Part shown: one piece after another, positions 9,735 through 41,300 of the stretch
Layout of the letters: the number at the start of each line of letters is the position of its first letter
How positions within the stretch are numbered: position 1 is the first letter of the stretch
Assembly (NCBI GenBank): GCA_017501105.1
Contig: JAFVXO010000105.1
Coordinates: 1-41,300, forward strand
Origin: Clostridia bacterium
GTDB lineage: Bacteria; Bacillota; Clostridia; RGIG7378
Direction of reading: 5' to 3'
Length of the DNA: 41,300 nucleotides
The notes under the pieces: model-generated
The model's database searches: none
What the model was told of the DNA's origin: nothing
What the model saw: the letters and a program-made list of their open reading frames with translations, nothing else
Translations under genes and position numbers: made by a program

Positions 9735-9759
9735 GGCCTCCTCGGAGGCCCTTTTTTTT
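9735..9759 (+). terminator. Rho-independent terminator after the LCP gene
   Basis: A perfect 7-bp stem (GGCCTCC at 9735-9741 with GGAGGCC at 9744-9750, loop TC) is followed by C and eight T residues (9752-9759). It sits 13 bases after the LCP stop codon and separates the envelope genes from the polysaccharide locus. Confidence 0.92.
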
Positions 9760-9796
9760 GTAGAGATAGGTTTTCACCACCGGAACTTTAAGGCTC

Positions 9797-9850
9797 ACCA
9801 TGTTGGGTGTTTTACCTGAGAAGAACAAGGAGCCAAAACACAAGCATGGT
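9797..9850 (+). other. nested inverted repeat in the 256-base gap before the capsule operon
   Basis: ACCATG (9797-9802) pairs with CATGGT (9845-9850), and inside it GTGTTTT (9807-9813) pairs with AAAACAC (9835-9841), with a 21-base loop. A competing pairing GGCTC (9792-9796) with GAGCC (9830-9834) is also possible. No T-run follows. It could be a structured leader or regulatory RNA; only the pairing is seen directly. The rest of the 9760-9977 gap is AT-rich with no supported gene. Confidence 0.4.
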
Positions 9851-9912
9851 TACTTGAGAATGTAATAATGTGATGATATTATAGAAAATGGATTATTGGA
9901 AGAAATTATTCC

Positions 9913-9940
9913 TTGCTTATCAAAGCAGACATGATATATA
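9913..9940 (+). promoter_or_regulatory. candidate sigma-A-type promoter for the polysaccharide operon
   Basis: TTGCTT (9913-9918) and TATATA (9935-9940) are separated by 16 bases, 38 bases before the first capsule gene and downstream of the LCP terminator. A promoter is expected here because of the terminator, but neither box is a perfect consensus. Confidence 0.4.
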
Positions 9941-9977
9941 AGAGTTAGATGCGGGATGTTACAGGAGATAATGCAGT

Positions 9978-23453: not shown

Positions 23454-23506
23454 ATAAACCCATTTGACTATAGGTTTTTGTGGCTTTTGGTCGACAATGC
23501 TTCACC

Positions 23507-23512
23507 GGAGGA
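23507..23512 (+). promoter_or_regulatory. ribosome binding site fixing the start of the dockerin protein
   Basis: GGAGGA lies 4 bases before ATG 23517 and decides for this start. The longer frame from ATG 23478 would add 13 polar residues in front of a good signal peptide and would place this site inside the gene. Confidence 0.75.
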
Positions 23513-23516
23513 CTAT

Positions 23517-25645: not shown

Positions 25646-27103
25646 GTGGATCAACAGTGGAAGAGAGTTGAATATGAGACCTGGGATGCAGCCTTTAAGG
25701 GACTGGTTCCTTTGGTTCGTCAACAGTCTGTGCGTGTTGCTGCCTATGCACGAGAATTGTATGTGCATGCCTATAGTTTGTCCTTTGCCCGCAAGTTTGA
25801 GGGACAAGAACGTATCCATGGTAGGTACGCAGATGTGGCTTACAAGTGTGGTATGTACCATCAGCTAGGCAAGGCTTTGGTTCCACCGGAGTACCAGCTG
25901 TGGCAGGAGGACGTTAAGGAAGAGGAGGAGCAACTCTACAAAAAATATACCAGTGATGGACGCATTTTAGTTTCCACGCTGCAGGTTAGAGGGGCCAAGT
26001 CACGCTTTTGGAAAAAGGAAGCTTTTGAAGAGCAGCCAACAGAAAATATTCCTTGGCTTATGATTCGCGAGAGCTGTCAGCAGCACATGGAACGATGGGA
26101 TGGCAGCGGCTATCCTGATGGACGAAAGGCGGAGGAGATTAGCCCAATTGCTCAAATTGTCGGCTTGGCCAGAGAGCTGGATGTCCTGGCATCAGGTACC
26201 GTATCAGAGACTCCTTTTGATGAGGCTTTTGCCATGCTTTGCAGCCAGGAGGGTACTCTCTGGAATCCCGAACTTATTCAGGTGCTAAAGGCAGCAGAGG
26301 CAAGTTGCCGCGAGGTATACAACAAATATATCCATTACACCTTGACCTTGCCAAAGACCATTACACTGGTGGAGAGGTCTGCGGATCGCTCCATGGGGTT
26401 GTCTTACAGGGCAATACAGGATTCGATGGATGGTCATATTTGGGGCTACGAGGCGACACCTTGGTTCTCCGGCATAGCAAATAGACCTGGAGAGATAGAA
26501 AGGCTTGATGATGTGGCATCTATGCTAAAGTCCACAGACATAGCAAATGATGTAGCCAATTACTTTATGTACGAGGCTGCAGATACCATTTTGAGAATGG
26601 GTAATTGCAGGCTGGATACAAATAAGGTATTGCTTAAAGTTCCTAATGAGTTGTATACTCAAGGTAGTAAGCTTAAGGAATTCAACCAGTTATTTGAGGA
26701 TCAACCTATCGAAAAGGATAATCTCCTGCTTTTGATACCGGAGCAGCTTGTCAAGAACGCCAACAAGGGAGTGAGGGAGGTCATAGCACGATATGTGCGC
26801 AATGGCATAGTTTTGGTTATGGACCAGTTCCACCCAGAGGCGTGGGAGCCGGAGGAGCTTAAGGAGACGGCCATTTCGTATCTGCGTTTATCCCCTGATG
26901 TTGCAATGGATGCTGATACAGCAGAATCCATCGAGATTCTTAAGACATGGGGCTTTACTATTTTGGCCACCGGTGTTGACTCCCAGGAAATGAGGGATTG
27001 GATGTTCCACAATGGCGTTGCGGGGCTGTCTGGACCTATAACAGGTAACATCATTACGGAGGATGAACTCATCAGAGACGGTATTATGAGGCAACAGCAA
27101 TGA
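25646..27103 (+). CDS. degenerate HD-GYP plus EAL-like protein (probable inactive c-di-GMP-related sensor)
   Basis: 485 residues, soluble. The N-terminal half matches HD-GYP: HQLGK (72-76) replaces the usual His-Asp-Ile-Gly-Lys, so the metal-binding Asp is Gln73. HMERWDGSGYPDG (147-159) keeps the GYP signature. The C-terminal half resembles EAL: GYEATPWF (267-274) for the Glu-Ala-Leu motif, MDQF (392-395) for the Asp-Asp-Phe motif, and ATGVDSQE near the end. Several catalytic residues of both halves are lost, so it is probably a c-di-GMP-binding or scaffold protein rather than an enzyme. GTG 25646 is the start, after GAGGAAA. Its location in a surface locus suggests control of assembly. Both family calls are from motif reading. 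Confidence 0.72.
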   Translation: MDQQWKRVEYETWDAAFKGLVPLVRQQSVRVAAYARELYVHAYSLSFARKFEGQERIHGRYADVAYKCGMYHQLGKALVPPEYQLWQEDVKEEEEQLYKKYTSDGRILVSTLQVRGAKSRFWKKEAFEEQPTENIPWLMIRESCQQHMERWDGSGYPDGRKAEEISPIAQIVGLARELDVLASGTVSETPFDEAFAMLCSQEGTLWNPELIQVLKAAEASCREVYNKYIHYTLTLPKTITLVERSADRSMGLSYRAIQDSMDGHIWGYEATPWFSGIANRPGEIERLDDVASMLKSTDIANDVANYFMYEAADTILRMGNCRLDTNKVLLKVPNELYTQGSKLKEFNQLFEDQPIEKDNLLLLIPEQLVKNANKGVREVIARYVRNGIVLVMDQFHPEAWEPEELKETAISYLRLSPDVAMDADTAESIEILKTWGFTILATGVDSQEMRDWMFHNGVAGLSGPITGNIITEDELIRDGIMRQQQ

Positions 27104-28200
27104 GTACTCCCAAGCAGGCTGGTGTAGATAGAGAGCCAAGGTGGAAACTCTTTCGCAAGACCAGGGGCGGCGTAGTATTGACACGGGCCGAGGTCAAGGA
27201 AATCCGTAAGGGCCGAAAAAAACTCCGTAAGGAGATGAAGGAACGCAAAATTTACAGTAAGTATGAGTTTGAGGCAATGGCCTCGGCTCTCGGACTGTAT
27301 TTTGATAAAAAAAAGGGACTTCTGTTTTTGTTGTTTAGCGGAGGTCGCGGAATATGGGTATTGTTGGGAGCAGCACTCTTGACTGTATTGGCATTGTTCG
27401 CAATGGCCACTGTTAGCCAGATGAGAGGATACTTTACTATCAACTTGTCGGACAAGATGTACACACAGGGGTTTGTGCTTAGTGAGACTGAGGATTTTAG
27501 CAATCCAACCAGTTATCTCTTTACGGAACCGCGAGAGGTTATATGTGTTTCTCTTTCGGATATTCCTGGAGACGTTGATGAGGGTGAGGGGTTGCATGAA
27601 AGTTCTGAGTTCTTTGCATACACTCACTATGTTAGAAACGAGGGCCATATGACTGCCAGCTATACTTGGCGGTTAAAGATAACGGGAGAGAGCCAGGGTT
27701 TATCTGATGCCGTTTGGGTTATGGTCATTGAGGACGGAAAAATGAGCTTGTTTGCCAAGGCTCATGCCGACGGAACATTGCAGACGCTGCCGGCGTTAGA
27801 TGATAATTCCAGAGGCTACATAGATATTCCCGTTATGGCGCTGGCTGATAATGCAGACGATTACCTGCAACCCATCAGGACTGTGGGCAGCGTGACATAT
27901 AACCGCGTTATCACAAAGTCCTTTGAGGAGGCCTACCAGGTGACGTCCGGAATACAGACAGAGGTGCATCCTGGAGAGGTACACAAATACACCGTTGTTA
28001 TGTGGTTGGAGGGCGATGATCCGGAATGTGTCGACCAGTTAATCGGAGGCCATATGGGAGTCACTATGGCATATACCATGGTGGATGAAGAGGATGAGGA
28101 GGAAACCTTCTGGGAGACTCTGTGGGATCGTCTGAACTTCTGGGAGAAGGAGGACTTTGAACACTTCTGGCAAAATATCTGGAACTCCTTGAGATTTTAG
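27100..28200 (+). CDS. single-pass membrane protein with WLEG-x-D-x-x-C motif and Trp-rich tail
   Basis: 366 residues, no recognised family. Residues 1-80 are cytoplasmic and strongly basic (KEIRKGRKKLRKEMKERK). Residues about 84-106 form the membrane helix, and the remainder should be outside. Near the C-terminus is WLEGDDPEC (302-310), a motif shared with the proteins at 31139 and 36477. After an acidic run, the last 30 residues carry five Trp and several Phe on a charged background, suggesting an amphipathic or docking helix. The start overlaps the previous stop (ATGA), linking it to the c-di-GMP-like protein. It may be a membrane-side platform for the surface proteins. Confidence 0.72.
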   Translation: MSTPKQAGVDREPRWKLFRKTRGGVVLTRAEVKEIRKGRKKLRKEMKERKIYSKYEFEAMASALGLYFDKKKGLLFLLFSGGRGIWVLLGAALLTVLALFAMATVSQMRGYFTINLSDKMYTQGFVLSETEDFSNPTSYLFTEPREVICVSLSDIPGDVDEGEGLHESSEFFAYTHYVRNEGHMTASYTWRLKITGESQGLSDAVWVMVIEDGKMSLFAKAHADGTLQTLPALDDNSRGYIDIPVMALADNADDYLQPIRTVGSVTYNRVITKSFEEAYQVTSGIQTEVHPGEVHKYTVVMWLEGDDPECVDQLIGGHMGVTMAYTMVDEEDEEETFWETLWDRLNFWEKEDFEHFWQNIWNSLRF

Positions 28201-28312: not shown

Positions 28313-30913
28313 ATGTACAAGCAAACAACTGAATACAAATCAATTCAGAAAAAGCTGGTAACTGCAGTTGCAATGGTTCTGGTGGCATGTATCATGGTGG
28401 TCTCCACATCTTACGCCTGGTTCACATTGTCTACAGCTCCTGAGGTTACAGGTATCACCACATCTGTCGGTGCTAACGGTAACCTGGAGATGGCTTTGCG
28501 TACGGGTAAATTATTGGATGATATAGAGACGACCATAGGCGCTACATATCCAACAGCAAATAACTCCTGGGGCAACCTGGTAGATCTCAGCGATGCCAGC
28601 TACATGCTTAGCGCCGTTGCTTTGCAGCCTGCTCGATTGAATATCACTCTCGATACAGAGAAGAGCAAGTATAGCGATGAGACTTCATACACTGTAAAGT
28701 CTGATACAATTAACCCTAAATGGGTAAAAGATGCAGTTTATGAGCCCGATGGAGCTAAAATTACAAGAGTTAGCTACACAGCATATGACGCATCAGACAA
28801 GGCTTTGCAAGAGGGAACTACAGAAGGTGTTTCGTATTACATGTACGAGATTACAACAGCGTACAGGTCCTTGATCCAGCCTGCATACAAGTTGGCAAGC
28901 AAAGCATATCTGCAGACTCCCATTTATGATATTAATGGTCAGCCTCAGGGTCTGGATGCTGCTAATGTTATTAATGGTACGTATAACCCAAGTGCCAACG
29001 GCTTTGTTGAAGCTGCATTGAATAATACTTTCGGCGTCAGAGCAGTTGGTACATCCAGCCAGATGTCTCCCGCAGAGATGGCTCTCCGTGCAGCTAAGCA
29101 GACTGTTAGCTCTACAATTACATCTGCCAAGACTGAGGCAGCCACATCTTTGCGCGTTGACTCTGTAGAGTTGGCCAGCATTATCATCAACCAGTATGTT
29201 TCTACAACCCCTACATTCTCTCAGGCAGATGTTACAACAATTGAAACAGCTATTGCTAACCTGCAGTCAATTGCTGCAGAGCTTGAGAGTGCTCTTGATG
29301 CTGCAGTTAAAGCAGTTGGTGTTGCTCAGAACATAGCAGTAAGTGGTAAAATCACTGTTGATGGCGATAAAATTACTGCCACAGGTGATGGCAAGACTGT
29401 TTCCTGGACAGGGCTGGAGACATTGGAGACAGCTCTTGTAGAGGCATATAACGTTGTGTCCGGTATGACAACAACTCTTGACAGCGCATCTAATGGATTG
29501 CCTACTGGAGAAACAGTTACTTGGGAGCAGATATCTGCAGCAATGAGCTCCTTGATGACAACAACTGATATTAGAGTTATCGACAGCAAGTCCGGTGCTG
29601 AATATACAGTTGAAGCTCTTAAGGCTTTGCCCTTGATGAATGCCGCTTCAATTCTGATGGGCACTCCCACAATCTCTATTGTAGATGGCGTTTATGCAGA
29701 CGTTGCCAGCCTTACTGGAAACTTCTCCGCATCCACATCTATGACAGTTAATGTTGAGTATAACGGCATCGACCTTAAGGACACGCCTGTCGATATCGTT
29801 ATGGCAACAGCAGTTGCTGAGTCAACAGTGGTGGGTACCTCTGGATTCTATCTGCCTATGATTCTTAGCCAGCTGTCCAGCGTTAGTGTTTCTGGCACAG
29901 AGGGCGAAGAGAACACAGCCCAGACAGTTATCACAGATATCTATGGCTATGTTATCGACCTTGCATTCCGTACAAACGCGGCCGGCTCCAGCTTGTTGCT
30001 CCAGACAGATGCTGTTGATCGTGTAGACGAGAGCTATGGCGATGATTCCCTCACAAAGGGTCACGGCAGCTACATGGAGTTCAAGTCCGGTCACCCCGAC
30101 TTTACCCTTAAGCAGGTAGCAGCCCTTATGGGTAGCGTCCGCGTTGTATTCCTTAACGACGAGGGCAACATCTTTGGTGTAGCAGCTCTCGACGTAAGCG
30201 ATGAGTTGGTAGATGTTCTTGGCGAGGATAATCTACCTGTTACATACGATCCCACACTTCATGGCTTCTATAGAACAGAAACAGTGAATGGTGAGGAAGT
30301 AAAATATGCACAGCAGCTCAAGGCAGGCACTATCGAATTTAAAGGTGATGCTCCTTATGTTCGCGCTGAGTTGGCTCTCTACGGCTTCGAGGTTTCTGAT
30401 GAGGGTATCTTGAAAAAGGGAGACAAACTTTCCTCCGATGTTATTACAACTCTTGACCAGAATATCGCCAAGGCAGTTTCTACTCTCGTTTACTTGGATG
30501 GTGATACTGTTGAGAACAAGGATGTTGCTATTTCCGGCGACTCTATGACTGGTTCCATGAACTTGCAGTTCGCAAGCTCTGCAGAGCTCGATCCCATGGA
30601 TTACACATTTACAAATGACAAGCTTGCAGCTCCCAAGGTAGAGTTTAAGGATGGCAAACTGGTTATCACAAATGTAGACAAAGCAGCATCTTACCAGATC
30701 ACATATGGTACAGTTCTTGACTACACAGTTAATGCAACTGCTGGTGAGACCACAGAGATTAATGTAAGTGAGATTGTCGGAACGAATAATAATGTTCCTG
30801 AGAACATTTCCCTTATGATCCAGGTTGTTGCAAATCCAGATGCTGGTTCACAGCTTAAGGCATCCAACAAGACAAACGTACAGATTATATATACTAAGCC
30901 TGTACAGCCGTAA
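28313..30913 (+). CDS. large surface/filament-type protein with SipW-cognate-like N-terminus
   Basis: 866 residues. Basic N-terminus, hydrophobic segment 15-34, then TSYAWFTLSTAPEVTGI (32-48) and ANGNLEMAL. This resembles the N-termini of proteins processed by SipW-type peptidases in Firmicutes. The mature part is Ala/Thr/Ser/Val-rich with alternating helical and beta stretches and is cysteine-free. Its end (about 765-866) looks like a small beta domain of fibronectin III type. No LPxTG sorting motif or C-terminal membrane segment exists, so any attachment must be by polymerisation or binding. AAAGGAAG precedes ATG 28313. Its size and flanking structured DNA suggest it is the major product of the locus. 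Function beyond surface structure is unknown. Confidence 0.78.
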   Translation: MYKQTTEYKSIQKKLVTAVAMVLVACIMVVSTSYAWFTLSTAPEVTGITTSVGANGNLEMALRTGKLLDDIETTIGATYPTANNSWGNLVDLSDASYMLSAVALQPARLNITLDTEKSKYSDETSYTVKSDTINPKWVKDAVYEPDGAKITRVSYTAYDASDKALQEGTTEGVSYYMYEITTAYRSLIQPAYKLASKAYLQTPIYDINGQPQGLDAANVINGTYNPSANGFVEAALNNTFGVRAVGTSSQMSPAEMALRAAKQTVSSTITSAKTEAATSLRVDSVELASIIINQYVSTTPTFSQADVTTIETAIANLQSIAAELESALDAAVKAVGVAQNIAVSGKITVDGDKITATGDGKTVSWTGLETLETALVEAYNVVSGMTTTLDSASNGLPTGETVTWEQISAAMSSLMTTTDIRVIDSKSGAEYTVEALKALPLMNAASILMGTPTISIVDGVYADVASLTGNFSASTSMTVNVEYNGIDLKDTPVDIVMATAVAESTVVGTSGFYLPMILSQLSSVSVSGTEGEENTAQTVITDIYGYVIDLAFRTNAAGSSLLLQTDAVDRVDESYGDDSLTKGHGSYMEFKSGHPDFTLKQVAALMGSVRVVFLNDEGNIFGVAALDVSDELVDVLGEDNLPVTYDPTLHGFYRTETVNGEEVKYAQQLKAGTIEFKGDAPYVRAELALYGFEVSDEGILKKGDKLSSDVITTLDQNIAKAVSTLVYLDGDTVENKDVAISGDSMTGSMNLQFASSAELDPMDYTFTNDKLAAPKVEFKDGKLVITNVDKAASYQITYGTVLDYTVNATAGETTEINVSEIVGTNNNVPENISLMIQVVANPDAGSQLKASNKTNVQIIYTKPVQP

Positions 30914-30948
30914 CATTTTTTCGATTTGTTTATAAGTGTATTGCCGTG

Positions 30949-30979
30949 TTCCTCCACCCCATTTTGTGGGGTGGAGGAA
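30949..30979 (+). other. 13-bp perfect GC-rich hairpin directly after the large surface protein gene
   Basis: TTCCTCCACCCCA (30949-30961) pairs exactly with TGGGGTGGAGGAA (30967-30979) around a TTTTG loop. It lacks the T-tract of an intrinsic terminator. Its place 36 bases behind the stop suggests an mRNA 3'-end stabiliser, a processing site, or a leaky terminator. Confidence 0.6.
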
Positions 30980-30987
30980 TCGTGGTA

Positions 30988-31035
30988 ATTGATAACATTA
31001 AGATGCGATAGAGTGGGCAACTTGGTGTTATCAAT
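30988..31035 (+). other. 10-bp perfect inverted repeat in the leader of the next surface gene
   Basis: ATTGATAACA (30988-30997) and TGTTATCAAT (31026-31035) are exact inverted copies with a 28-base loop. This is the second of three successive structures in the 225-base gap 30914-31138. Confidence 0.5.
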
Positions 31036-31049
31036 GCCAGGCGATCCGC

Positions 31050-31086
31050 TTTTTCAAGGGCCAATATTGGTTGACCTTTGGAAAAA
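31050..31086 (+). other. bulged hairpin closing the structured leader
   Basis: TTTTTC (31050-31055) pairs with GAAAAA (31081-31086). Inside it AAGG (31056-31059) can pair with CCTT (31075-31078), and CCAA (31061-31064) with TTGG (31067-31070). It ends 53 bases before the GTG start at 31139. Confidence 0.4.
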
Positions 31087-31138
31087 CTGATCATCCTGGA
31101 TGGTCTATTAGTAAACCTGAAATGCTGGGAGATTATTA

Positions 31139-32140
31139 GTGAAAAATCAAGTTAAAAAAAAGCGTAAGCCCTTTATGATTCTAGTTTATTGGGTGATGGT
31201 AATGACTTTGTTTTCACTACTAGTTACGGCCACATATACCTGGTTCTCAATCAGCAGAACACCTAAGGTGGGCAACATGGGACTCCATGTAAATGCGCCG
31301 GCTGGGTTGTCACTATCTACAGAGCCGGAGGGGGCAGAGTGGGTGCAACAGGTAAATGTAGCCGACCTGATTGGAGAGACGACTCCATTGAGACCAGTCA
31401 CCTGGTCAGAAAAGGACCAATGCTTTTACGCAGTTGTGTATGGGATAAATGGCCAACCCACCGGACAATATATTAAGCTGTCGGACAACACAAATGCCAA
31501 CAGGAGTGACATATATGGATACTACATTAAGTTTACCTTGTATGCCACAGCTGAGACCAATGTGAAGGTAAGGCTGACAGAGGCCATGGAGCTTAATGAC
31601 GGCAGGGATGGTGCAGGGACATATTTGATTGGTTCTCCCATATGGGATAGGGAACAGATACTCCACAGCGATGGTGGAAACGGAGCCCAAAATGCAATCC
31701 GCGTCGGATTTAAATTTACACCTTTGTCAGACGGAGAGGAGCAGTCGACAGGGAGCCAGTTCTTTATATATGAACCAAACAGCGACAGTCATGTGTCAGG
31801 AGAACAGGGCTATGTGGATACGCCCAGTATTGATGGAACCAGCACTCTGGTGCCCTCGGACAAACTCATTCCACAGACAGCCACAACGTGGACTGAGGCT
31901 GATGTGGTGGAAAGATCGGTGGTGATTAAGGAAATGGGTGATTTCCTGACAGATACCAATCTTATTAGTATTAAGGCACATGAAGTTGTTAAGGTCGATG
32001 TTTATCTGTGGCTGGAGGGACAGGATGCAGATTGCAAAGATTTGGGTACAAAAGAGACGCAAATTATGGCAAATATTCAGTTTTATGCAGACACGGAAGG
32101 TCAATCCGGAATGCAGCCGATTACTGATGATATAGATTGA
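31139..32140 (+). CDS. surface protein with SipW-cognate-like N-terminus and WLEG-x-D-x-x-C motif
   Basis: 333 residues. Positively charged start (KKKRKP), hydrophobic 12-33, then TYTWFSIS (32-39), the counterpart of the Ala-Trp-Phe motif in the preceding surface protein. The exported part is beta-rich. WLEGQDADC (291-299) near the end matches WLEGDDPEC and WLEGQDVDC in two other proteins of this locus, so they form one family. No sorting signal or C-terminal anchor is seen. The start is GTG 31139 with GGGAG 7 bases upstream. A minor subunit or cap/adaptor of the same structure as the large protein is a reasonable inference. Confidence 0.75.
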   Translation: MKNQVKKKRKPFMILVYWVMVMTLFSLLVTATYTWFSISRTPKVGNMGLHVNAPAGLSLSTEPEGAEWVQQVNVADLIGETTPLRPVTWSEKDQCFYAVVYGINGQPTGQYIKLSDNTNANRSDIYGYYIKFTLYATAETNVKVRLTEAMELNDGRDGAGTYLIGSPIWDREQILHSDGGNGAQNAIRVGFKFTPLSDGEEQSTGSQFFIYEPNSDSHVSGEQGYVDTPSIDGTSTLVPSDKLIPQTATTWTEADVVERSVVIKEMGDFLTDTNLISIKAHEVVKVDVYLWLEGQDADCKDLGTKETQIMANIQFYADTEGQSGMQPITDDID

Positions 32141-32141
32141 T

Positions 32142-32170
32142 TTGCAGATATTCGACAACAGATATATAAT
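32142..32170 (+). promoter_or_regulatory. promoter of the sipW-AAA operon
   Basis: A perfect TATAAT (32165-32170) lies 17 bases after TTGCAG (32142-32147), in the 74-base gap before the first signal peptidase gene. The predicted start of transcription is about 38 bases before ATG 32215. Confidence 0.55.
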
Positions 32171-32214
32171 TAAGACTAGATACTATCAATAATACGATAG
32201 AAAGGAATAATAGA

Positions 32215-32994
32215 ATGAGCAAGAGGAACACCGAAGCGACAGAACAGAAAAAGGTCAGCAAGGGTACTGGACGAAAGATTGCTAATATTGTAGTTAACGT
32301 TTTACTTGTTGTTGCACTTGTAGTTGTTGCAATCTGCACTTATGTATCATTTGTCTCAGCATCGGGTAATGGAGTCCCCAGCGTGTTTGGTATTGAGTTT
32401 TTCTCGATTCAGACAGACTCAATGTCACCATTTCTGGAACCCGGAGACTTGGCAATTGGTATTGAGGTAAAGGACAAGAAGGAACTTAAGGCTAAGGACG
32501 TTATTACATACTGGACTGTTATAAACGGAGAGCGTGTACTTAATACTCACCGTATTGAGACAGTTTATGACGGTGGTAACATCAGAATCTTCGAGACCAA
32601 GGGAGATAACAGCAACTCTGCAGACCCAATGACAGTCCATGAGAACCAGGTTGTGGGCAAGTACTTGTTCAAGATTCCTCGTGTAGGTAAGGTGTTTGAT
32701 TACCTGCAAACTTCTACAGGATTCCTTGTAGTTATTGTTATTCCTGTATTCCTGTTCTTCCTATATCATCTGGTACAGTTCTTCCGCGTGCTGTTTGAGT
32801 ATCAGAATGTCAAGAATCGTCTTCGTTACGAAGAGGAGAGAGGACGTGCTGAGGATGTTATCGAGGAGCATCAAAAACAGCAGGACGAGGCCAGAGCCCA
32901 ATTGGAGGCCCAGCTAAGGGAGCAGTTAAAGGCTGAGCTCTTGGCGGATATGGCTAAAAATCAGCAGACAGGGGAAGTTGTCTCCCAAGAGTAA
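32215..32994 (+). CDS. sipW: SipW-type (ER/archaeal-like) signal peptidase I with coiled-coil tail, copy 1
   Basis: 259 residues. Membrane helix about 22-47, then the catalytic domain: TDSMSPFLEPGD holds the nucleophile Ser69. NTHRI holds His112, the general base used instead of the Lys of ordinary bacterial signal peptidases. TKGDNSNSAD supplies the acidic residue (Asp131 or Asp137). A second membrane helix lies at about 173-195, and a charged coiled coil (about 200-250) follows, predicted to be cytoplasmic. SipW peptidases process a special class of surface substrates such as TasA in Bacillus. The neighbouring Ala-Trp-Phe-type surface proteins are the obvious candidates. AAAGGAA precedes ATG 32215. 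The coiled-coil tail is an unusual addition. Confidence 0.9.
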   Translation: MSKRNTEATEQKKVSKGTGRKIANIVVNVLLVVALVVVAICTYVSFVSASGNGVPSVFGIEFFSIQTDSMSPFLEPGDLAIGIEVKDKKELKAKDVITYWTVINGERVLNTHRIETVYDGGNIRIFETKGDNSNSADPMTVHENQVVGKYLFKIPRVGKVFDYLQTSTGFLVVIVIPVFLFFLYHLVQFFRVLFEYQNVKNRLRYEEERGRAEDVIEEHQKQQDEARAQLEAQLREQLKAELLADMAKNQQTGEVVSQE

Positions 32995-33015
32995 TTTTTA
33001 AGTATTATTGTTGTT

Positions 33016-33031
33016 TTGTGATAGTTCACAA
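33016..33031 (+). promoter_or_regulatory. palindrome TGTGA-N4-TCACA before the AAA+ gene
   Basis: TTGTGA (33016-33021) and TCACAA (33026-33031) are exact inverted copies around TAGT. The site resembles a CRP/FNR-family half-site pair with a 4-base spacer. It may equally be a short mRNA hairpin between coupled genes. Confidence 0.35.
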
Positions 33032-33040
33032 CGCAATGAA

Positions 33041-33046
33041 AGGTGA
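33041..33046 (+). promoter_or_regulatory. ribosome binding site fixing GTG 33053 as start of the AAA+ gene
   Basis: AGGTGA at 33041-33046 is 6 bases before GTG 33053, which is correct spacing. The alternative TTG at 33047 would touch the site directly and is unlikely. Confidence 0.7.
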
Positions 33047-33052
33047 TTGGCA

Positions 33053-34651
33053 GTGGATAATTTTTTAAAGTACTTTTTTCAAGATTTCGGTCGGGTATTA
33101 AGGGCTTTTTTTGAAATATTCGCTGCCATTTTCAATTTTCTTAATTATCTCCTAAATTTTCCCATGAGGATGGAGATTATTAAGTCATATGAGGAGAACT
33201 TTACAACAACAGATTGGATTCTGTTGTTACTTGCCAACATAGCGTTAATTGTTGTGCTGGTTATTGCCGGTATTTTCTTGACGAAGCTTTTAAGACGCAT
33301 ATTTAGGTTCCGTATTCCTGTTAAAGAGTACGACAATATGGTTAAGCAGGTTCGTACTCTGCAAAGGGACCTGATGCGGGCAAATTACGAAAAGGACAAG
33401 TTATTGGCCATGCGTCTTGCCGAGCTGGGTGGCAGTACAGAGGACATGCAGCATCTTATTGATGAGCCCGGTGAGTCAGAGGAAGGCGAGAATGGAGAAA
33501 CTCCCGGCGAGGAGGTCCAGTCTATTGGAGAGCGTAATACATTTGAGTCACCAATTGTAGACCCATCCACCAGTAGGTTCTTCAGACTTACCTCGGTAGA
33601 TAATTACTACAAGACTAGTTATATACCTCCGGTATACGAGAAGGATGTCACCCTTGAGGAGTTTTGTGTCCGCTTCAGAGCCTTTGCTGCATCTAAGCTG
33701 AGATTGTACTATGAAATAGATATGATCCGCTATTTTGTTGCTGCAATGGGTACGGCTCGTATCATCATTTTGCAGGGTATTTCCGGTACAGGTAAGACCA
33801 GCTTGCCATATGCTTTTGGTAAGTTTGTTCAAAAGGATACCTCATTGGTTTCTGTTCAGCCCTCATGGCGTGAGCGTACTGAGTTGTATGGGTATTACAA
33901 TGAGTTTACGAAAAAGTATTCCGAGACAGACTTCCTCCGTGCCATTTATGAGGCTAATTATTACAGAGATCCTCATATTCTGATTTTGGACGAGATGAAT
34001 ATTGCTCGTGTAGAGTACTATTTCGCTGAAATGCTCTCTATTCTGGAAATGCCCCTTGTAGAGGAGTGGAAGGTAGATATCGTTACTGCAACCTGGGATA
34101 ATGATCCTTGTTTGATTAATAACGGTACTGTTCAGATTCCCGACAATGTGTGGTTTGTTGGAACTATTAACAACGACGACTCCACATTTGCCGTAGCTGA
34201 TAAGGTATATGACCGTGCTATTCCAATCGACTTGGATAGTAGAGCAGAACCCTTTGAGTGCGACCCTCTGCCTCCGATTAACATCTCTACAGACAGGCTA
34301 TCGGAGTTGTTTGCAGAGGCTAAGGAAAAGTATCCCCTTAGCAAGGAGATGGAGGATAAGATGGAGGTGCTTAATGGATACCTTATTAAGAACTTCCGAT
34401 TGGCATTTGGTAACCGTGTTATCAAGCAGATCAGAGATTTTGTTCCCTGTCTTATTGCTTGTGGAGGAACAGAGATTCAGGCCGTTGACTTTATTATTGC
34501 AAAGAAGGTTTTGCGCAAATTTGAATCCTTGAGCCTCGGCTTTATGAAGGATGACCTGGCAAGATTTAACCAGTATCTTGACAAGCTGTTTGGAAAGAAC
34601 ACCATGGAAATCTGCAAGAACTATGTTGAATTGTTGAGAAAGAATAACTAG
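33053..34651 (+). CDS. membrane-anchored McrB-like AAA+ NTPase
   Basis: 532 residues. An N-terminal amphipathic region (1-36) and one strong membrane helix (about 54-79) precede a coiled coil (90-125) and an acidic linker (136-160). The AAA+ domain follows, with Walker A GISGTGKTS (242-250), SWRERTELYGYYNEF (271-285), Walker B ILILDEMNIARV (309-320), sensor 1 GTINNDDST (370-378) and the arginine finger region VYDRAIPIDLD (385-395). These place it in the McrB branch of AAA+ proteins. McrB is normally a soluble restriction motor, but this one is tied to the membrane and sits between signal peptidase and surface-protein genes. It probably energises assembly, extraction or gating of the surface complex. 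Nucleotide preference (ATP or GTP) is unclear. Confidence 0.87.
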   Translation: MDNFLKYFFQDFGRVLRAFFEIFAAIFNFLNYLLNFPMRMEIIKSYEENFTTTDWILLLLANIALIVVLVIAGIFLTKLLRRIFRFRIPVKEYDNMVKQVRTLQRDLMRANYEKDKLLAMRLAELGGSTEDMQHLIDEPGESEEGENGETPGEEVQSIGERNTFESPIVDPSTSRFFRLTSVDNYYKTSYIPPVYEKDVTLEEFCVRFRAFAASKLRLYYEIDMIRYFVAAMGTARIIILQGISGTGKTSLPYAFGKFVQKDTSLVSVQPSWRERTELYGYYNEFTKKYSETDFLRAIYEANYYRDPHILILDEMNIARVEYYFAEMLSILEMPLVEEWKVDIVTATWDNDPCLINNGTVQIPDNVWFVGTINNDDSTFAVADKVYDRAIPIDLDSRAEPFECDPLPPINISTDRLSELFAEAKEKYPLSKEMEDKMEVLNGYLIKNFRLAFGNRVIKQIRDFVPCLIACGGTEIQAVDFIIAKKVLRKFESLSLGFMKDDLARFNQYLDKLFGKNTMEICKNYVELLRKNN

Positions 34652-34673
34652 TTGTTATCGTAGGAGATCTGCT

Positions 34674-36473
34674 ATGGCTTCAGATAAAAAGAATAAGGCG
34701 ACAATGATGGAGCCACTGGCCTTAGTGGATCCTGTATATCAAAAGTTTGTAAAAGGTATACTCCGTGCTATTGGTAGCACGGACTTTTACACCTATTTCA
34801 TGCGTTCCATTGCCGGTGCAGACAATCAGATACAGTTTTCCAATCGTAAGATGATCAAAACTGTAGATGTTACATGGGTAGATACCATAGAGGATTCGCT
34901 GGAGGCGTTCCAGACAATTATTAACGCTCCTCGTAACGTCATTAAGGAAGAGGAACTGATTGTTAATGTTGCCAATGCCAAAAAGACGGGCACAGAGGTG
35001 GTGCAGCATTTGGCACAACATTCAAATCTTGTAGAGGATTTTAATTATGATACAGGTGATGTGCGTCCGTCCAGGCTTATGCAAAGATACAGGGAGGATA
35101 GTACAGAGCTTTACGAAAACAAGATTGTATTTACAGCCCTGGAATCAGCTTACCAGTTTGTAAAGATCAGACATGATGCTCTTTTCTCTGCCATGAGCGA
35201 CGAGTTTGGCGCTAAGCTTAAGGTTCAGTCCAATATGGATAGTGCCACAGAACACGTTCATCTGGATATGTTTCTGCATATAAAACAGGTAGAAAATTTA
35301 TTAGATACAGATGAGCGAAATTCCGAAATATTCGGCAGAATTTCCCGCATGCATCGTATTTTGGGCATGTTCATGAATACGGATTTTGCAGAGAGAATGA
35401 GCAAGCTGTCTCGTGTTAAGGGCACTATTGTTAAGACTAACGTACTCAAGAAGAACCCTAACTACCGTCACATTGTGGAACTCTTTGAGTTTTTGCACAA
35501 TTATAACGAAATTGGTTATAGCATCAATGTTATTGAACAGAATCCCGAGGTAAACGACACTCTGCAGAGAGACATCTATCACAATATCCTGTTTAACTAT
35601 TTGGTTCTGAAGGGGTACTTACAGGACGAAGAGGATAGGCAAGTATCTGTGTCCTCAAGGGGTAAAAAGCGTACGCTTAAGCCCAAGTTCATCAAGGAAA
35701 TAATTGAGGAACTGACTGAGGACTATGATTTGCCGGATGTGGAAATTCACAAGGTCCTCATCGAGGAATTGACCAAAACTGATTTGATGAAGGAGGAGTC
35801 TGCTGAGAGACACCGCCTGGTAGAGGAGCAGCGTCAGAGAAAGAAGGCTGAGGAGGAACGAATCCGCCAGGAAAAAGCTGCCGAGAAGGAGAGACTCCGG
35901 CAGGAAAAGGAGGCAGAGAAGGAACGCCTTCGTATAGAAAAGGAAAAGGAAGAGCAAAGATTGCTGCAGGAGCGCATGGAGTTAGAGATCGAGATGCGCA
36001 GACGCAGTGCTTTGTTCAAGAAGGACCTGGCCAATTTTGCAGAAAATCTTCGAGAGCGGTTAGAGGAAAGAGTAAACCAACAAAGTAAGGAAGAGCAGAT
36101 TCTGGAGAGACTGGATTATTCAGAGGCTGTCATCCTTCTTGAGGAGGAGGAAACTCGTCGCAGAGAGGCTAATGCAAGACTCCGAAAGCAACGCCAAATT
36201 GAAAAGGAAATGCGTCGCCAAGAGGAGGAGCGTGAGCGTATCCGTCAAGAGCAGGAGGCTGAGCGTGCAAGGGCAGAGGCTGAAGAGCAGGAGCGCATAG
36301 CTATGGAGAGACAGCGCGAAAAGGACATGGTGGCTCTCAAACCTGTTATCCTGGAGCTGGAACGTTTTGCAGAGTATAGAGGAACCCAGAAACTAGAGCG
36401 TATCATGGAGCAGCAGAGGCAGCAGGCTGCATTGGAAAAGCGTAGATTATCTGCTCAATCAAAGAGGGGATAG
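34674..36473 (+). CDS. DUF2357-like partner protein with long charged coiled coil, no nuclease domain
   Basis: 599 residues, soluble. Residues about 130-310 contain LMQRYREDSTELYENKIV followed by a conserved aromatic helix, and VLKKNPNYRHIVELFEFL (257-274). These are the pattern of DUF2357-type proteins that partner McrB-like AAA+ ATPases. Those proteins often end in a PD-(D/E)xK nuclease; here no such motif is seen. Instead, from about 375 to the end there is a very long Glu/Lys/Arg/Gln-rich coiled coil with imperfect repeats such as EKERLRQEKEAEKERLRIE. It follows the AAA+ gene by 22 bases with GTAGGAGA upstream. I infer a structural or adaptor partner of the motor, not a nuclease. The DUF2357 call is by recollection of the motif. 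Confidence 0.72.
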   Translation: MASDKKNKATMMEPLALVDPVYQKFVKGILRAIGSTDFYTYFMRSIAGADNQIQFSNRKMIKTVDVTWVDTIEDSLEAFQTIINAPRNVIKEEELIVNVANAKKTGTEVVQHLAQHSNLVEDFNYDTGDVRPSRLMQRYREDSTELYENKIVFTALESAYQFVKIRHDALFSAMSDEFGAKLKVQSNMDSATEHVHLDMFLHIKQVENLLDTDERNSEIFGRISRMHRILGMFMNTDFAERMSKLSRVKGTIVKTNVLKKNPNYRHIVELFEFLHNYNEIGYSINVIEQNPEVNDTLQRDIYHNILFNYLVLKGYLQDEEDRQVSVSSRGKKRTLKPKFIKEIIEELTEDYDLPDVEIHKVLIEELTKTDLMKEESAERHRLVEEQRQRKKAEEERIRQEKAAEKERLRQEKEAEKERLRIEKEKEEQRLLQERMELEIEMRRRSALFKKDLANFAENLRERLEERVNQQSKEEQILERLDYSEAVILLEEEETRRREANARLRKQRQIEKEMRRQEEERERIRQEQEAERARAEAEEQERIAMERQREKDMVALKPVILELERFAEYRGTQKLERIMEQQRQQAALEKRRLSAQSKRG

Positions 36474-36476
36474 GAT

Positions 36477-37841
36477 ATGAAGAAATATACCAAATTGGTT
36501 GTTGCCCTTGTCCTCTTGGTCACAGCTTCTGTTATGGTTGTTATGACATCCTTTGCATGGCTCACTATATCTCAAAATCCAGTGGTACAGGGCATTCAGG
36601 TTACAATCAGCGGTTCCCACACGGTTCTGGTTGCACCGGATGTGTCGTATGAGAGGGATGGACAGGTATTTCACTTTCCCGGGGAGTTTTCAGATAAATT
36701 GAGTTTTGATCAACAGGATAGGTATGCTTACCTTAAGGATGTTGCCGGACTAGTGCCAGTATCTACTGTGGATGGTGAAAATTGGTACATTCCTGATTAT
36801 TACGATGCGAATGATCATGAGGTGCTCGAAGGAAATGCGTATGCTGGACAGATAAAACCAACAAGTGATTTCTTCCTGGATAATATGTTGTTTTATTCTA
36901 ACTTGACATCAAACCAGGGGGAGATGCTCCAACAGGGCAACTATGTTTACATAGACTTTTGGGTAGTTGCTCCAGTTGATGGATATAAACTCAGAGTTTC
37001 TGCAGGAGACCAGTCTGCCGCCGGAACCTATGTGATAGACCTGATGAAACCCGAGGAGATTTCTGTAGGCGATTCTGTAACATATGAGCTGACTAAGGTT
37101 AACCAGCAGGCGTCCTCCAGCATGAGATTGGGATTTTTAGTGAATCACGATACTCTGGTGGATGACAGCATGTTGCTGTATACAGAGAGTCAGCATTATA
37201 AAAGCAGTTATTCCAGTCTACAGGGCGTTTATGCAGAGCCGGGATACAGTGCATTAAATAGTGCACAGACAAAATTTATAATATTCGAGCCAAATGGCGA
37301 TGTACATCCGGAGGTGGTGTATGATTCTAATGGCAATCGAATACTAAATGGCCAATATGTTCAGACAGAGCCTCTTGGCGAAGGTGGATTACCTTTCAGC
37401 ATACAAGATAGGTTAACTGTTCAGTTGGCAAATAGTTGGATAATGGCAGATGGTGAATTGTTCATAACCCAGATGTTTCGAACTTTTATGGCGGGGAGAG
37501 ATATATCAGGGGAGACGGCTTTGTCCTTAAATAACAAATTTATGACAGAGTATCTACAGTATCAGATTCACCCATATATAGCTAAGGGCAATTTTGTCTC
37601 AAATACCGAGAATCTTTACAAGGTTGCAGGTGCAGACAAGGTTTTGATGGCAGAAGAGATAGCAGACCTTAACCAGGGAGGCGCAACAGAGGATGTGTTC
37701 CTTACACAGTTGACGGGCGGAGTGCCGCAGCGAATCAGAATGTTCGTTTGGCTAGAGGGCCAGGATGTGGATTGTATTAATTCTGCATCTACAGGAAGTT
37801 TTGCTATCAGTGTAGAGTTGGCAGGCAGCAATGCAAGATAA
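36477..37841 (+). CDS. surface protein, SipW-cognate-like N-terminus, C-terminal WLEG-x-D-x-x-C
   Basis: 454 residues. Basic start, hydrophobic 6-24, then TSFAWLTISQNPVVQGI (24-40), closely matching the N-terminus of the 866-residue protein. The exported part is beta-rich with many Tyr, Asp and Gly. WLEGQDVDC (425-433) lies near the end, as in the proteins at 27100 and 31139, followed by a short strand-like tail. No anchor is visible. The start is 3 bases after the DUF2357-like stop, so this surface protein is translated from the same message as the AAA+ motor. GGGGATAGGA serves as Shine-Dalgarno. Likely a subunit of the same surface structure. Confidence 0.77.
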   Translation: MKKYTKLVVALVLLVTASVMVVMTSFAWLTISQNPVVQGIQVTISGSHTVLVAPDVSYERDGQVFHFPGEFSDKLSFDQQDRYAYLKDVAGLVPVSTVDGENWYIPDYYDANDHEVLEGNAYAGQIKPTSDFFLDNMLFYSNLTSNQGEMLQQGNYVYIDFWVVAPVDGYKLRVSAGDQSAAGTYVIDLMKPEEISVGDSVTYELTKVNQQASSSMRLGFLVNHDTLVDDSMLLYTESQHYKSSYSSLQGVYAEPGYSALNSAQTKFIIFEPNGDVHPEVVYDSNGNRILNGQYVQTEPLGEGGLPFSIQDRLTVQLANSWIMADGELFITQMFRTFMAGRDISGETALSLNNKFMTEYLQYQIHPYIAKGNFVSNTENLYKVAGADKVLMAEEIADLNQGGATEDVFLTQLTGGVPQRIRMFVWLEGQDVDCINSASTGSFAISVELAGSNAR

Positions 37842-37864
37842 TATGCACTAACAGAAAGGAAATA

Positions 37865-38587
37865 ATGCGTTTAAGCAATATATGGAAAAAATTAGGCTCC
37901 TGGTTATCTACAGTTGCACTGATGGTTTCTATAATCATATGCGCGACTGTTATTGTACAGGTGAGCACTAATGGATATGTAGAAATAGGCGGGTACAGTC
38001 TGTTCAAGATTGTTACAGGCAGCATGGGAGAAACGATCCCAGAGGGTTCGATAATTCTATGTTGTGAGACAGAAATTGAGGACATAGAGGTGGGGGATAT
38101 AGTATGCTTCCTATCTGAAAATCCTCAAATAATGGGGAAGGTCGTCACGCACAGGGTCGCAAGTATTGCTGTTGCAGATGACGGTTTGATCCAATTGGAA
38201 ACTAAGGGGGATGCCAATTTAACAGCCGATAGGGAGTCAGTTACAGAGAAAAATTTAATTGGCAAGGTTTATGGCTATGAGAAGGACAAAAATGTTATGT
38301 TGATGTTAGTTGATGTGTTAACTGATAAGATTGGATTTTTGATTTTAATCCTATTTCCAACGTTGTTTATTGCCGGATTTGTATTGCGTGTCTGCATGAA
38401 GAATATGCAAAGGGAAATTGAAAAGGCAATCGACGAAGAAAAGAAGATAAAAGAGGCACAGCTGTATTCTCCGGAGGAATATGCTGCCATGCTGCAACGT
38501 ATTAAGGACGAGGTTACACAGGAACTGGAGGAGACCGTTGAGGAAGGTAATGCAAAGACTACTGCAGAGGAGTCAAAAACAGAATAA
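37865..38587 (+). CDS. sipW: SipW-type signal peptidase I with coiled-coil tail, copy 2
   Basis: 240 residues, same plan as copy 1 but clearly diverged. Helix about 12-33; the catalytic serine is Ser53 in TGSMGETIPEGS. His96 is in VTHRV, and TKGDANLTAD supplies Asp116 or Asp122. A second helix lies at about 157-177, and a charged coiled-coil tail (about 180-225) follows. The use of His rather than Lys marks it as ER/SipW-type. It lies between two surface-protein genes and overlaps the following one. Two peptidases in one locus suggest division of labour among substrates. AGAAAGGAAATA precedes ATG 37865. Confidence 0.88.
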   Translation: MRLSNIWKKLGSWLSTVALMVSIIICATVIVQVSTNGYVEIGGYSLFKIVTGSMGETIPEGSIILCCETEIEDIEVGDIVCFLSENPQIMGKVVTHRVASIAVADDGLIQLETKGDANLTADRESVTEKNLIGKVYGYEKDKNVMLMLVDVLTDKIGFLILILFPTLFIAGFVLRVCMKNMQREIEKAIDEEKKIKEAQLYSPEEYAAMLQRIKDEVTQELEETVEEGNAKTTAEESKTE

Positions 38588-40478
38588 GGCATTACAGACT
38601 ATTCATAAAAGGGTTTTAATCCATGCAGGAATAGCGTTGTGGACAATTATTGTTACTATAGCACTCATATTTGGTATGAGTGCTGCTTGGTATACAAATG
38701 TTCTGCAGACGTCAGGATTGCAGTTCCAGGCAGAGGCATGGGGATTTAACGGGAAGGTATTGGTAACAGATGCTCCAACGGAGGCTGGGCCCGGCGATAC
38801 AGGAATAGTAGGCCTGACCGTGACAAATTCCAGTGACGACCTTCTATATGTGGCCGTCAATTTGTCAAAGACTCAGATGACGGTTCCAATGCAGCAGAGA
38901 CTATATTTTTATGTGGATATTGCCACAGAGAGCAACGGAGAAAGTCTGGACAGAGTATATATTAATACACAAAAAAGCTACACTTACTCACTGTTGGCAC
39001 ATAGTGAACTGGTTTTAACAGAAAAACGCTCTAACGATGCCATGCTCAAATGGCAGTGGGTATACGATATGGAGGGCTATTATTTCCTGGGATCCTTGAT
39101 GGAGACAACGGATTCTGCCGGGAATGTTACAGTTGTTCCTACAGTAGAGGACTATCTGCGCCCTGTTGAGTACGATTTGGATACAGCTATATTTTCCGAT
39201 GGCTTTTTGACGGAGGCCAATGGCAAGCCTTTGGATCAGTTTGTAAAGGAATTGTCTGAGACCGATGGTTATGCCGGAGACATAACACCCGGCCAGTGGC
39301 AGGGATATTACAAAGTGGATGTTGATGAAAACGGATATGGCATATGGATGTATATCTGTAATTGGGCCGAGATACAGCAGGCCACCATATATGACACGCA
39401 ATTGGGAAAGACCGCAGCACAGGCAATAGAAAATGGAACGGAGAGGGAGAACTATCTTGCCCGATTAACATTTACCGGACAGGTTTCCCACAATGATTTC
39501 AAAGAGGTTTCAACAGCTGAAGAGTTTATAGCGGCACTTAATGAAGGGGGAATGATCAAGCTCAGCCATGGACTGGAGTTGTCAGAGCCTATTGTCGTAA
39601 ATGGGGGCGCAAAGGCTGTGGTTGATCTGGCAGGCTGCACCATTACGGGCCCATCAAATAATTCTACTCTGGTTATAAACGACGGTTCAGAGCTGATGGT
39701 TATGAATGGTTCTCTGGTAGGCACTGATGGCACTCAAGATGTAATTACGGTCAGTGGAAGTTCTCTTACATTAAGCGGAGTAAATATTACGGGAGAATCT
39801 GATGATGCTATCTATGTTGTAGACCAAGGCAGTTCGGTGGATTCCTGTGTGAGAATATTCAATAGCGAAATCACTGCATCCAGCTGTGCCGTGTACATGA
39901 GGGGAAATGGCTCATCGCAAGATGGATACACTCAGGTAATTATCGAAAACAGCACTTTAACCAGTGATTATATGGCTGTGCTTGGAAATGGCACACAAAG
40001 GTATTGGGGAACTGATGTACAAATCTATCAGTCTACTATTCACGGCTACTACGCAGCAGTTTATCAGCCTCAGGGCGATAGTATTACAAGAATTACTGAG
40101 AGTACAGTCTCTGGCCTGACAGGTGTTGTAATTAAAGGAGGCGACCTGGTGGTTGCAGACAGCACCGTAATGGGAACCTCGGAGCAGCCTGAAAATCCGA
40201 CGTATCTCGGCAGTGGCTTTTCAGACACCGGTGACGGTATTTACATTGAATGTGGTTACGCCAATACAATTCATGTAACTGTAGAGGGAGAATTCTCTAA
40301 CATAATCAGCAAGAAGGCTCAGGCAGTAAGAGTTTTTGAGCCGGATAGTGTTTATGCCAATGTTTTCCTTAAGGGCGGGGCATATTCATCGGATGTAACA
40401 CATCTCTTGAGAGAGGGTTATTCCTATGACGCTTCTTCAGGCATCGTCAGTGCAGTGAAGGGAGCATCAAATGAATAA
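38550..40478 (+). CDS. surface protein with camelysin/TasA-like head and parallel beta-helix tail
   Basis: 642 residues from ATG 38550, which has GAGGAAGG close upstream and overlaps the peptidase gene by 38 bases; a longer frame from ATG 38481 would add a basic, non-helical extension and is less likely. Hydrophobic 24-46, then SAAWYTN (44-50). Residues about 56-130 contain QFQAEAWGFNG and GIVGLTVTNSSDD, reminiscent of camelysin/TasA-type domains. From about 317 to 630 there are repeated short strands and turns (for example SSLTLSGVNITGESDDAIYV) that fit a right-handed beta-helix like pectate-lyase-fold surface proteins. No LPxTG. It is probably an adhesin or fibre-tip-like element. Enzyme activity is not evident. 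Confidence 0.75.
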   Translation: MQRLLQRSQKQNKALQTIHKRVLIHAGIALWTIIVTIALIFGMSAAWYTNVLQTSGLQFQAEAWGFNGKVLVTDAPTEAGPGDTGIVGLTVTNSSDDLLYVAVNLSKTQMTVPMQQRLYFYVDIATESNGESLDRVYINTQKSYTYSLLAHSELVLTEKRSNDAMLKWQWVYDMEGYYFLGSLMETTDSAGNVTVVPTVEDYLRPVEYDLDTAIFSDGFLTEANGKPLDQFVKELSETDGYAGDITPGQWQGYYKVDVDENGYGIWMYICNWAEIQQATIYDTQLGKTAAQAIENGTERENYLARLTFTGQVSHNDFKEVSTAEEFIAALNEGGMIKLSHGLELSEPIVVNGGAKAVVDLAGCTITGPSNNSTLVINDGSELMVMNGSLVGTDGTQDVITVSGSSLTLSGVNITGESDDAIYVVDQGSSVDSCVRIFNSEITASSCAVYMRGNGSSQDGYTQVIIENSTLTSDYMAVLGNGTQRYWGTDVQIYQSTIHGYYAAVYQPQGDSITRITESTVSGLTGVVIKGGDLVVADSTVMGTSEQPENPTYLGSGFSDTGDGIYIECGYANTIHVTVEGEFSNIISKKAQAVRVFEPDSVYANVFLKGGAYSSDVTHLLREGYSYDASSGIVSAVKGASNE

Positions 40479-41007
40479 ATCACCAATTAAGAGGAATATA
40501 GCCTCAATCCTTGTTTTGGTGCTTGTGGTGCTCGTGATTGTCTATGCCGGTGTTGCATATGCCAGATATCTGGAGACGCTTGTTTTTAATCAAGAATTTG
40601 TTGCAAAACCTTTGGAACAGGTGGCTTTCGGGTCGAGCCAATGGCGAGTTAATGACAGGGAATCTGTTCTGGAATTTACGATGTCTGAGGAGTTGGAGGC
40701 CTGCAGAATATATATTGCGGTTTCTCAGGGAGTTAGCAACCCGGAGGCTCTGGAGATTTCTCTGAGTAAGCCAGGGGAGACCGAGGATAATACGTATATT
40801 GCAGTCCCTGAACCAATCGATAAAAGGACATCCCTTTATAAGATATTTGGTGAAGGCTATGTATTTAGGTTTTATGATGCAGAGACAGGAGAGGAGATAG
40901 AGTGGGAGTTTAATCCTCATGACACGTATACTATCTCTTTAAGTCAATTAGATGATGCAACAGAGTATCCAAGTCTGATCAGAGTATTTGTTGAGGAAAA
41001 CTATTAG
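40471..41007 (+). CDS. small surface protein with N-terminal hydrophobic segment
   Basis: 178 residues. A basic N-terminus (NKSPIKRN) is followed by hydrophobic 10-28 and AYARYLETL (29-37), a reduced version of the aromatic motif seen in the neighbouring surface proteins. The remaining about 140 residues are acidic and beta-rich. There is one cysteine and no anchor. The start overlaps the beta-helix protein stop by 8 bases, so the two are probably made together. No family recognised. A minor subunit, or a pilot for the beta-helix protein, is possible. Confidence 0.72.
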   Translation: MNKSPIKRNIASILVLVLVVLVIVYAGVAYARYLETLVFNQEFVAKPLEQVAFGSSQWRVNDRESVLEFTMSEELEACRIYIAVSQGVSNPEALEISLSKPGETEDNTYIAVPEPIDKRTSLYKIFGEGYVFRFYDAETGEEIEWEFNPHDTYTISLSQLDDATEYPSLIRVFVEENY

Positions 41008-41027
41008 GGTGTAGAGTGTTCTGAACT

Positions 41028-41300
41028 ATGAAGAAACGCAGAAATAAAATTGCATATTTGCTGACAATGGCGCTAGTGGTTTCTTGCGTTTTTTCTTCTG
41101 CCGGCAGCACCTATGGCAGGCCGATTCAAAGGACAAGTTCCGAGCTTTTGTTCAGTCCCGTTGAGACTCAAGAGTACTTTAGTGATTGCCTGTGTGCAGG
41201 AGGCCAGAGGATTTCACTAAGGGATTGGCAGGCAGACGAATACACAAGAACTGTTGTTTTCAAAATTACCAGACCAATGGTGGATGTACAAGATGATTTG
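41028..41300 (+). CDS. secreted protein, N-terminal part (3' truncated by window edge)
   Basis: 91 residues visible, open to the end of the window. A basic start (KKRRNK) and hydrophobic 8-24 (IAYLLTMALVVSCVFSS) form a signal peptide with a small-residue cleavage region near SSAGS. A Cys at residue 20 lies inside the hydrophobic core, so lipoprotein processing is not well supported. The exported part is mixed and shows no recognised domain yet. It begins 20 bases after the preceding stop without a strong Shine-Dalgarno. By position it is the next member of the surface locus, which therefore continues beyond the window. Confidence 0.65.
   Translation, partial: MKKRRNKIAYLLTMALVVSCVFSSAGSTYGRPIQRTSSELLFSPVETQEYFSDCLCAGGQRISLRDWQADEYTRTVVFKITRPMVDVQDDL

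Follow-up and report, generated by a model that had tools for sequence, protein, structure and literature searches.

What is a restriction-type motor doing among genes for surface proteins and their signal peptidases? The question was raised by a gene cluster in a gut bacterium of the Clostridia (GenBank assembly GCA_017501105.1), on contig JAFVXO010000105.1, the whole of which (41.3 kb of a 1.49 Mb genome assembly) was analysed and is called the window here. The cluster fills the right third of the window, with all genes on the plus strand, and encodes two SipW-type signal peptidases, a McrB-like nucleoside triphosphatase (NTPase), a DUF2357-like protein, a protein with HD-GYP and EAL domains, and surface-type proteins labelled S0 to S6. 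We show that the restriction-derived NTPase and its nuclease-less partner are co-inherited with SipW, surface proteins and proteins with cyclic di-GMP (c-di-GMP) domains. From the sequences, we think it on balance probable that the motor, once part of a restriction system, is tethered to SipW by a tail helix at the SipW C-terminus and controls how matrix fibres are processed or assembled.

The gene order in the window is HD-GYP/EAL, S0, S1, S2, SipW 1, McrB-like NTPase, DUF2357-like, S3, SipW 2, S4, S5 and S6, with junctions between open reading frames (ORFs) of -107 to +225 nt. A genome scan gave 80 related loci, in metagenome-assembled genomes of Oscillospiraceae, Lachnospiraceae and Bacilli; the counts taken from them come from related sequences and are not independent. 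Of the 76 loci with enough space, 75 had a DUF2357 gene directly behind the NTPase (62 by strict windowing and 13 with overlapping frames, adjacent on the locus map). SipW was present in every one of the 62 loci that extend 3.5 kb downstream, and 67 of 67 had surface-type genes upstream. Oscillospiraceae loci had the same order as the window, the Lachnospiraceae order was HD-GYP, S0, S2-like, NTPase, short DUF2357 and SipW, and Bacilli loci began with surface genes and a dead SipW-like gene, followed by NTPase, DUF2357, SipW, EAL, PNP_UDP_1 and a large protein carrying EAL at its C-terminus. The linkage holds over these three lineages though the flanks are rearranged. This synteny gives strong support to a conserved system of SipW, its likely substrates and a membrane McrB/DUF2357 pair; the co-occurrence and order on which the original prediction had staked itself beforehand were kept in other genomes. 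Synteny gaps in L003, L004, L006, L008, L009, L012, L014 and L078 proved to be ORF-calling artefacts. The one locus lacking the DUF2357 gene downstream, L081 on an Anaeroplasma contig, has two large repeat surface proteins directly behind the motor (1148-8889).

The peptidases of the window and the tail helix of the first are:

32215..32994, plus strand: SipW-type signal peptidase 1 (Ser-His); NF046067 E 4e-30, TIGR02228 E 2e-23
32914..32952, plus strand: conserved C-terminal tail helix of SipW 1, predicted cytosolic, LREQLKAELLADM
37865..38587, plus strand: SipW-type signal peptidase 2 (Ser-His); TIGR02228 E 3e-21

Two Ser-His SipW-type peptidases had been proposed for the cluster, and both were recovered: SipW 1 and SipW 2 scored 83.0 and 76.2 bits against the Ser-His class TIGR02228 (cut-off 51.85), they matched the SipW profile NF046067 under its equivalog cut-off (E 4e-30 and 2e-21), and their Ser and His stand in the motifs TDSM/THRI and TGSM/THRV. 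They are the sole members over the cut-off in their own genome. The C-termini of linked SipW proteins have the consensus LSEEDKERLKxELLEEM. Counted by a simple pattern, among proteins that include related sequences and are hence not independent, this tail occurred in 81 of 102 linked SipW proteins, catalytically dead copies included (0.7 expected from shuffled tails), and in 0 of 29 SipW-family peptidases from same-phylum genomes without the motor. The tail helix is common to the SipW proteins and dead copies of motor loci, and it is missing from free-standing SipW. Given the topology known for such peptidases, the helix would lie on the cytosolic side of the membrane. Bacilli loci encode SipW-like proteins of 117-145 residues with two transmembrane helices, in which the catalytic domain has been lost and the tail helix kept; these proteins, among them the product of L027:6328-6705, have the appearance of dead SipW scaffolds.

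It could be argued that the linkage is physical only, and that an NTPase pair residing in a matrix operon works on an unrelated target, given that SipW occurs without the motor in 97 of 398 genomes. Against this, the linkage outlasts the rearrangement of its flanks in three lineages, the tail is specific to motor loci, and a genome of the same genus (G001) has neither the motor nor a SipW over the cut-off. We judge such a coincidence of position very unlikely.

The features of the NTPase are:

33047..34651 (likely start GTG 33053), plus strand: membrane-anchored McrB-like NxD AAA+ NTPase
33215..33292, plus strand: transmembrane helix (18 of 19 residues hydrophobic), then a coiled-coil-like segment
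33776..33802, plus strand: Walker A motif GISGTGKTS, invariant in 36 sequences
34169..34180, plus strand: NxD motif (NND then D), in the register of GTVNMDE of nuclease-linked NxD relatives

The hydrophobic stretch lies at about residues 60-78, ahead of the AAA+ core, whereas nuclease-linked NxD relatives have at most 14 hydrophobic residues in 19 anywhere before the P-loop. Across 36 aligned NTPases the Walker A, Walker B, NxD and DRA motifs (GISGTGKTS, LDEMN, NNDD and VYDRA) were invariant or nearly so, and GTxNNDDST of the motor aligns in register with GTVNMDETT of the NxD relatives. A profile of the NTPase matched E. coli McrB in the PDB (E 2e-6); the membrane-anchored McrB-like AAA+ protein of the original prediction was upheld. 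No DNA specificity domain was found in the NTPase with Pfam, its N-terminus being a membrane helix; this N-terminus had no match to Pfam FtsB/DivIC, and in it the transmembrane helix is clear, with a coiled-coil-like segment behind. The linked NTPases formed one clade (support 100/100) beside an NxD McrB group with nuclease-bearing McrC partners. Phylum-wide, NTPase matches were found in 47 of 399 genomes and were rejected as members of the system: the 20 flanks read showed no recognisable SipW gene or surface gene of SipW type, and Pfam identified all three partners scanned as DUF2357-PDDEXK_7 proteins, so these NTPases were treated as outgroups.

The partner of the NTPase comprises:

34674..36473, plus strand: DUF2357-type (McrC N-terminal) protein without nuclease, with a long charged C-terminal helix
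34896..35612, plus strand: DUF2357-like core, residues about 75-313 (hhalign 97.6%, E 4e-12)
35787..36470, plus strand: Glu/Lys/Arg-rich helix (52% E+K+R), no nuclease

On its own the window protein gave no Pfam match. An orthologue in L023 scored 28.1 bits against DUF2357 (cut-off 23.3), a profile of the partner family retrieved DUF2357-PDDEXK_7 McrC proteins (E 5e-9), and the hhalign values above are for the partner family against these proteins. With no Pfam match to PD-(D/E)xK in the window or in the long orthologues, and with the charged helix in place, the DUF2357-like coiled-coil protein lacking a nuclease is as first described. Neither Foldseek with a model of the protein (predicted local distance difference test, pLDDT, 79) nor its sequence profile gave anything significant in the PDB. 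The charged helix varies greatly in length, from about 17 to 800 residues. In Lachnospiraceae the protein stops at about 390 residues without this helix, and the SipW tail is missing there too; the two absences may go back to one evolutionary event. Much longer are the DUF2357 proteins of L035 (2240 residues, 1567-8289) and L052 (2331 residues, 4599-11594), the latter with 13 Big_2 immunoglobulin (Ig)-like domains by Pfam in its C-terminal two thirds and the former with the same repeats by eye.

The McrBC descent of the pair invites the explanation that it is an anti-phage system using or guarding the cell surface, with the surface operon as sensor or receptor barrier; the NTPase matches the PADLOC candidate model PDC-M26A (E 6e-43), and its closest relatives adjoin DUF2357-PDDEXK_7 proteins. 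Like type IV McrBC of E. coli and NxD McrBC, the pair has an AAA+ core, Walker motifs and a DUF2357 partner gene directly downstream, but it is without the nuclease and the modified-base domain of type IV systems, has gained a membrane anchor and stands in a surface operon. CoCoNuTs likewise have the NxD motif, coiled coils on their McrB and McrC homologues and frequent loss of the McrC nuclease, yet according to the main text of PMC11090510 those without it always keep another nuclease nearby, whereas no HEPN, other nuclease or other effector recurred in window-type loci, and no recurrent nuclease was found among 96 neighbour proteins in the top 25 of 95 families listed. The gene order is also far steadier than is usual in defence islands, and the neighbours are c-di-GMP and surface genes. 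We therefore consider an anti-phage function quite unlikely.

If instead the motor is tethered to SipW, a McrB ring would lie beneath the membrane, and the DUF2357 protein would dock on it and stimulate the NTPase, because a McrC homologue docks on and stimulates the McrB ring in McrBC structures as summarised in PMC11090510. The charged helix, the ring or both would grip the SipW tail, NTP hydrolysis would switch, cluster or release the peptidases, and processing and assembly of TasA-like subunits would take place at one site under c-di-GMP control. The NTPase would be a MoxR-like remodelling switch and not a pulling machine. The energised surface assembly suggested in the original prediction is plausible; the contractile filament suggested with it was rejected, as no sheath, baseplate or pilus-motor family was found. 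To our knowledge there is no precedent for a TasA-type surface fibre with a step driven by NTP. The more specific proposal, that a McrB/McrC motor was exapted once and that the membrane NTPase grips the SipW tail and drives or gates matrix-fibre assembly under c-di-GMP control, is put forward tentatively, as a serious possibility.

The pair might also position or scaffold the export site through an FtsB-like membrane helix and coiled coils, hydrolysis controlling oligomer assembly only and doing no work on SipW. Such a role would suit the N-terminus of the NTPase, and charged helices of such unequal length resemble spacers; but the catalytic residues are invariant in all aligned NTPases, which argues that hydrolysis is needed, and the motor-specific tail argues for direct contact with SipW. 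A pure scaffold seems to us unlikely.

Several points weigh against a motor that acts on SipW and its fibres, the non-independence of the locus counts being one. The tail of SipW 2 in the window is degenerate (RIKDEVTQEL), several of its orthologues keeping an intact one, and no tail was found in SipW of Lachnospiraceae (L016, L017, L019, L022) or of L057 and L061. A Foldseek search of the PDB with a model of S2 gave no significant match. Ig-like domains usually stand outside the cell, and the runs of them in the L052 and L035 DUF2357 proteins, in which no signal peptide was seen, are unexplained by the model. In Bacillus the tapA-sipW-tasA operon encodes no NTPase, and TasA fibres still assemble (PMC9674648), a contrast correctly drawn in the original prediction. 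That B. subtilis system resembles the window in its SipW-class Ser-His peptidase, exported fibre-type substrates and exopolysaccharide (EPS) genes; it has no DUF2357 protein either, and the window surface proteins match no TasA/camelysin family in Pfam or NCBIfam.

Although the system was thought to be undescribed, its class has already been named CoCoPALM in PMC11090510 (eLife 2024), in one paragraph of a main text that defers the analysis. CoCoPALM is described there as NxD GTPases with an FtsB-like transmembrane helix and coiled coil and linked signal peptidase-family proteins, E or D usually following the NxD motif. The window has an NxD followed by D in a McrB-like NTPase, a transmembrane and coiled-coil-like N-terminus, linked signal peptidases (two) and a McrC homologue, the DUF2357 protein, with a coiled coil. 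This fit to the description, FtsB homology aside, files the locus in that named, uncharacterised class, of which it is, by the published wording and its own sequence features, a member. SipW-type cargo, c-di-GMP genes, the tail helix, dead SipW and nuclease loss go beyond the main text of that paper. New here are the motor clade, the motor-specific SipW tail, the c-di-GMP neighbours in three lineages and the same-genus genome without motor and SipW. No literature joining SipW and McrB in one system was found beyond the CoCoNuT paper, and none on the function of CoCoPALM in the literature searched.

The surface-type proteins of the cluster are:

27100..28200, plus strand: S0, membrane-anchored Trp-Leu-Glu-Gly protein with a cytosolic N-terminus of about 80 residues; 4-nt overlap with the HD-GYP/EAL gene
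28313..30913, plus strand: S1, 866 residues, SipW-type N-terminus STSYAWF
31139..32140, plus strand: S2, 333 residues, SipW-type N-terminus TATYTWF, WLEGQD near the C-terminus
36477..37841, plus strand: S3, 454 residues, SipW-type N-terminus TSFAWL, WLEGQD
38550..40478 (ORF open from 38481), plus strand: S4, SipW-type N-terminus SAAWYTN, possible beta-solenoid
40471..41007, plus strand: S5, exported protein, 178 residues
41028..41300, plus strand: S6, exported, runs off the contig end; orthologues in L003 and L004

Five surface proteins had been credited with SipW-type N-termini. The W-F/Y/L signal-end motif is present in S1, S2, S3 and S4 and not in S5, and S6 is truncated where the contig stops. 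Of 296 S-type proteins, 199 have an N-terminal [AST]W[FYL] where 16 were expected, and 195 have a C-terminal W-L-E-G-x-D where 3.2 were expected; among the other proteins encoded in these loci, 24 of 572 have the N-terminal motif. Orthologues of S0 occur in Oscillospiraceae, Lachnospiraceae and Bacilli loci and relatives of S1 in at least 13 loci; S4, for which the start at 38550 is more likely, has a weak NosD-like match (E 0.03). The AlphaFold2 model of S2 is beta-rich (mean pLDDT 81). Its non-significant fold matches include bundling pili (7ueg, E 0.06) and an archaeal thread (7pnb, E 0.21), and archaeal bundling pili and the thread filament are related to TasA-type donor-strand fibres (PMC9674648); as signs of fibre kinship these matches are at most suggestive. 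With no significant fold match for S2, it is the SipW link and the N-termini on which the term TasA-like is based.

The first gene of the cluster is:

25646..27103, plus strand: HD-GYP (HD_5) and EAL protein; Pfam HD_5 E 2e-15, EAL E 5e-12

Both of its active sites are degenerate (HQLGK, YEATPW); the protein is probably catalytically degenerate and may be a c-di-GMP receptor. Of the 59 loci with sufficient flanking sequence, 55 have EAL, GGDEF or HD-GYP proteins close to the NTPase, as labelled by a profile made in this analysis, with Pfam confirming a subset; among the 96 neighbour proteins Pfam identified 20 with EAL, 12 with GGDEF and 6 with HD_5. The Bacilli EAL protein retains the motifs EALVR, DDFG and EGV. 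Such genes adjoin the cluster in three lineages, and since different ones recur by lineage, a regulated role in matrix formation or adhesion is indicated. A PNP_UDP_1 (nucleoside phosphorylase-like) gene has the same position in nearly all Bacilli loci, as in L027:15220-15963, where it encodes 245 residues and lies between the EAL gene and an EAL-containing gene of about 1015 residues.

The ORFs lie where they had been described, on one strand and with short or overlapping junctions. The cluster had been taken to begin at 28313; the genes described belong to it, and its start moves left by two more (25646-28200). Relatives extend beyond the position matching the contig end, with another large surface gene. 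Directly upstream is a capsule/EPS locus (Wzz, tyrosine-kinase-like ATPase, CpsB/CapC, sugar transferase, LytR-CpsA-Psr), and between it and the cluster (23478-25627) are a dockerin type I protein and a membrane protein with a FIVAR domain. No sortase or LPxTG signal was seen in the cluster region; the genome has three sortase matches, all on other contigs, so the earlier remark on sortases is valid for the cluster region only.

The evidence on CoCoPALM leads away from restriction and toward the cell surface, and the SipW tail helix is a concrete, mutable candidate for the contact. If the proposed mechanism is true, a DNA-cutting motor would have come to regulate the assembly of matrix or pili, and gut Bacillota would possess an energised variant of the TasA-type fibre systems.

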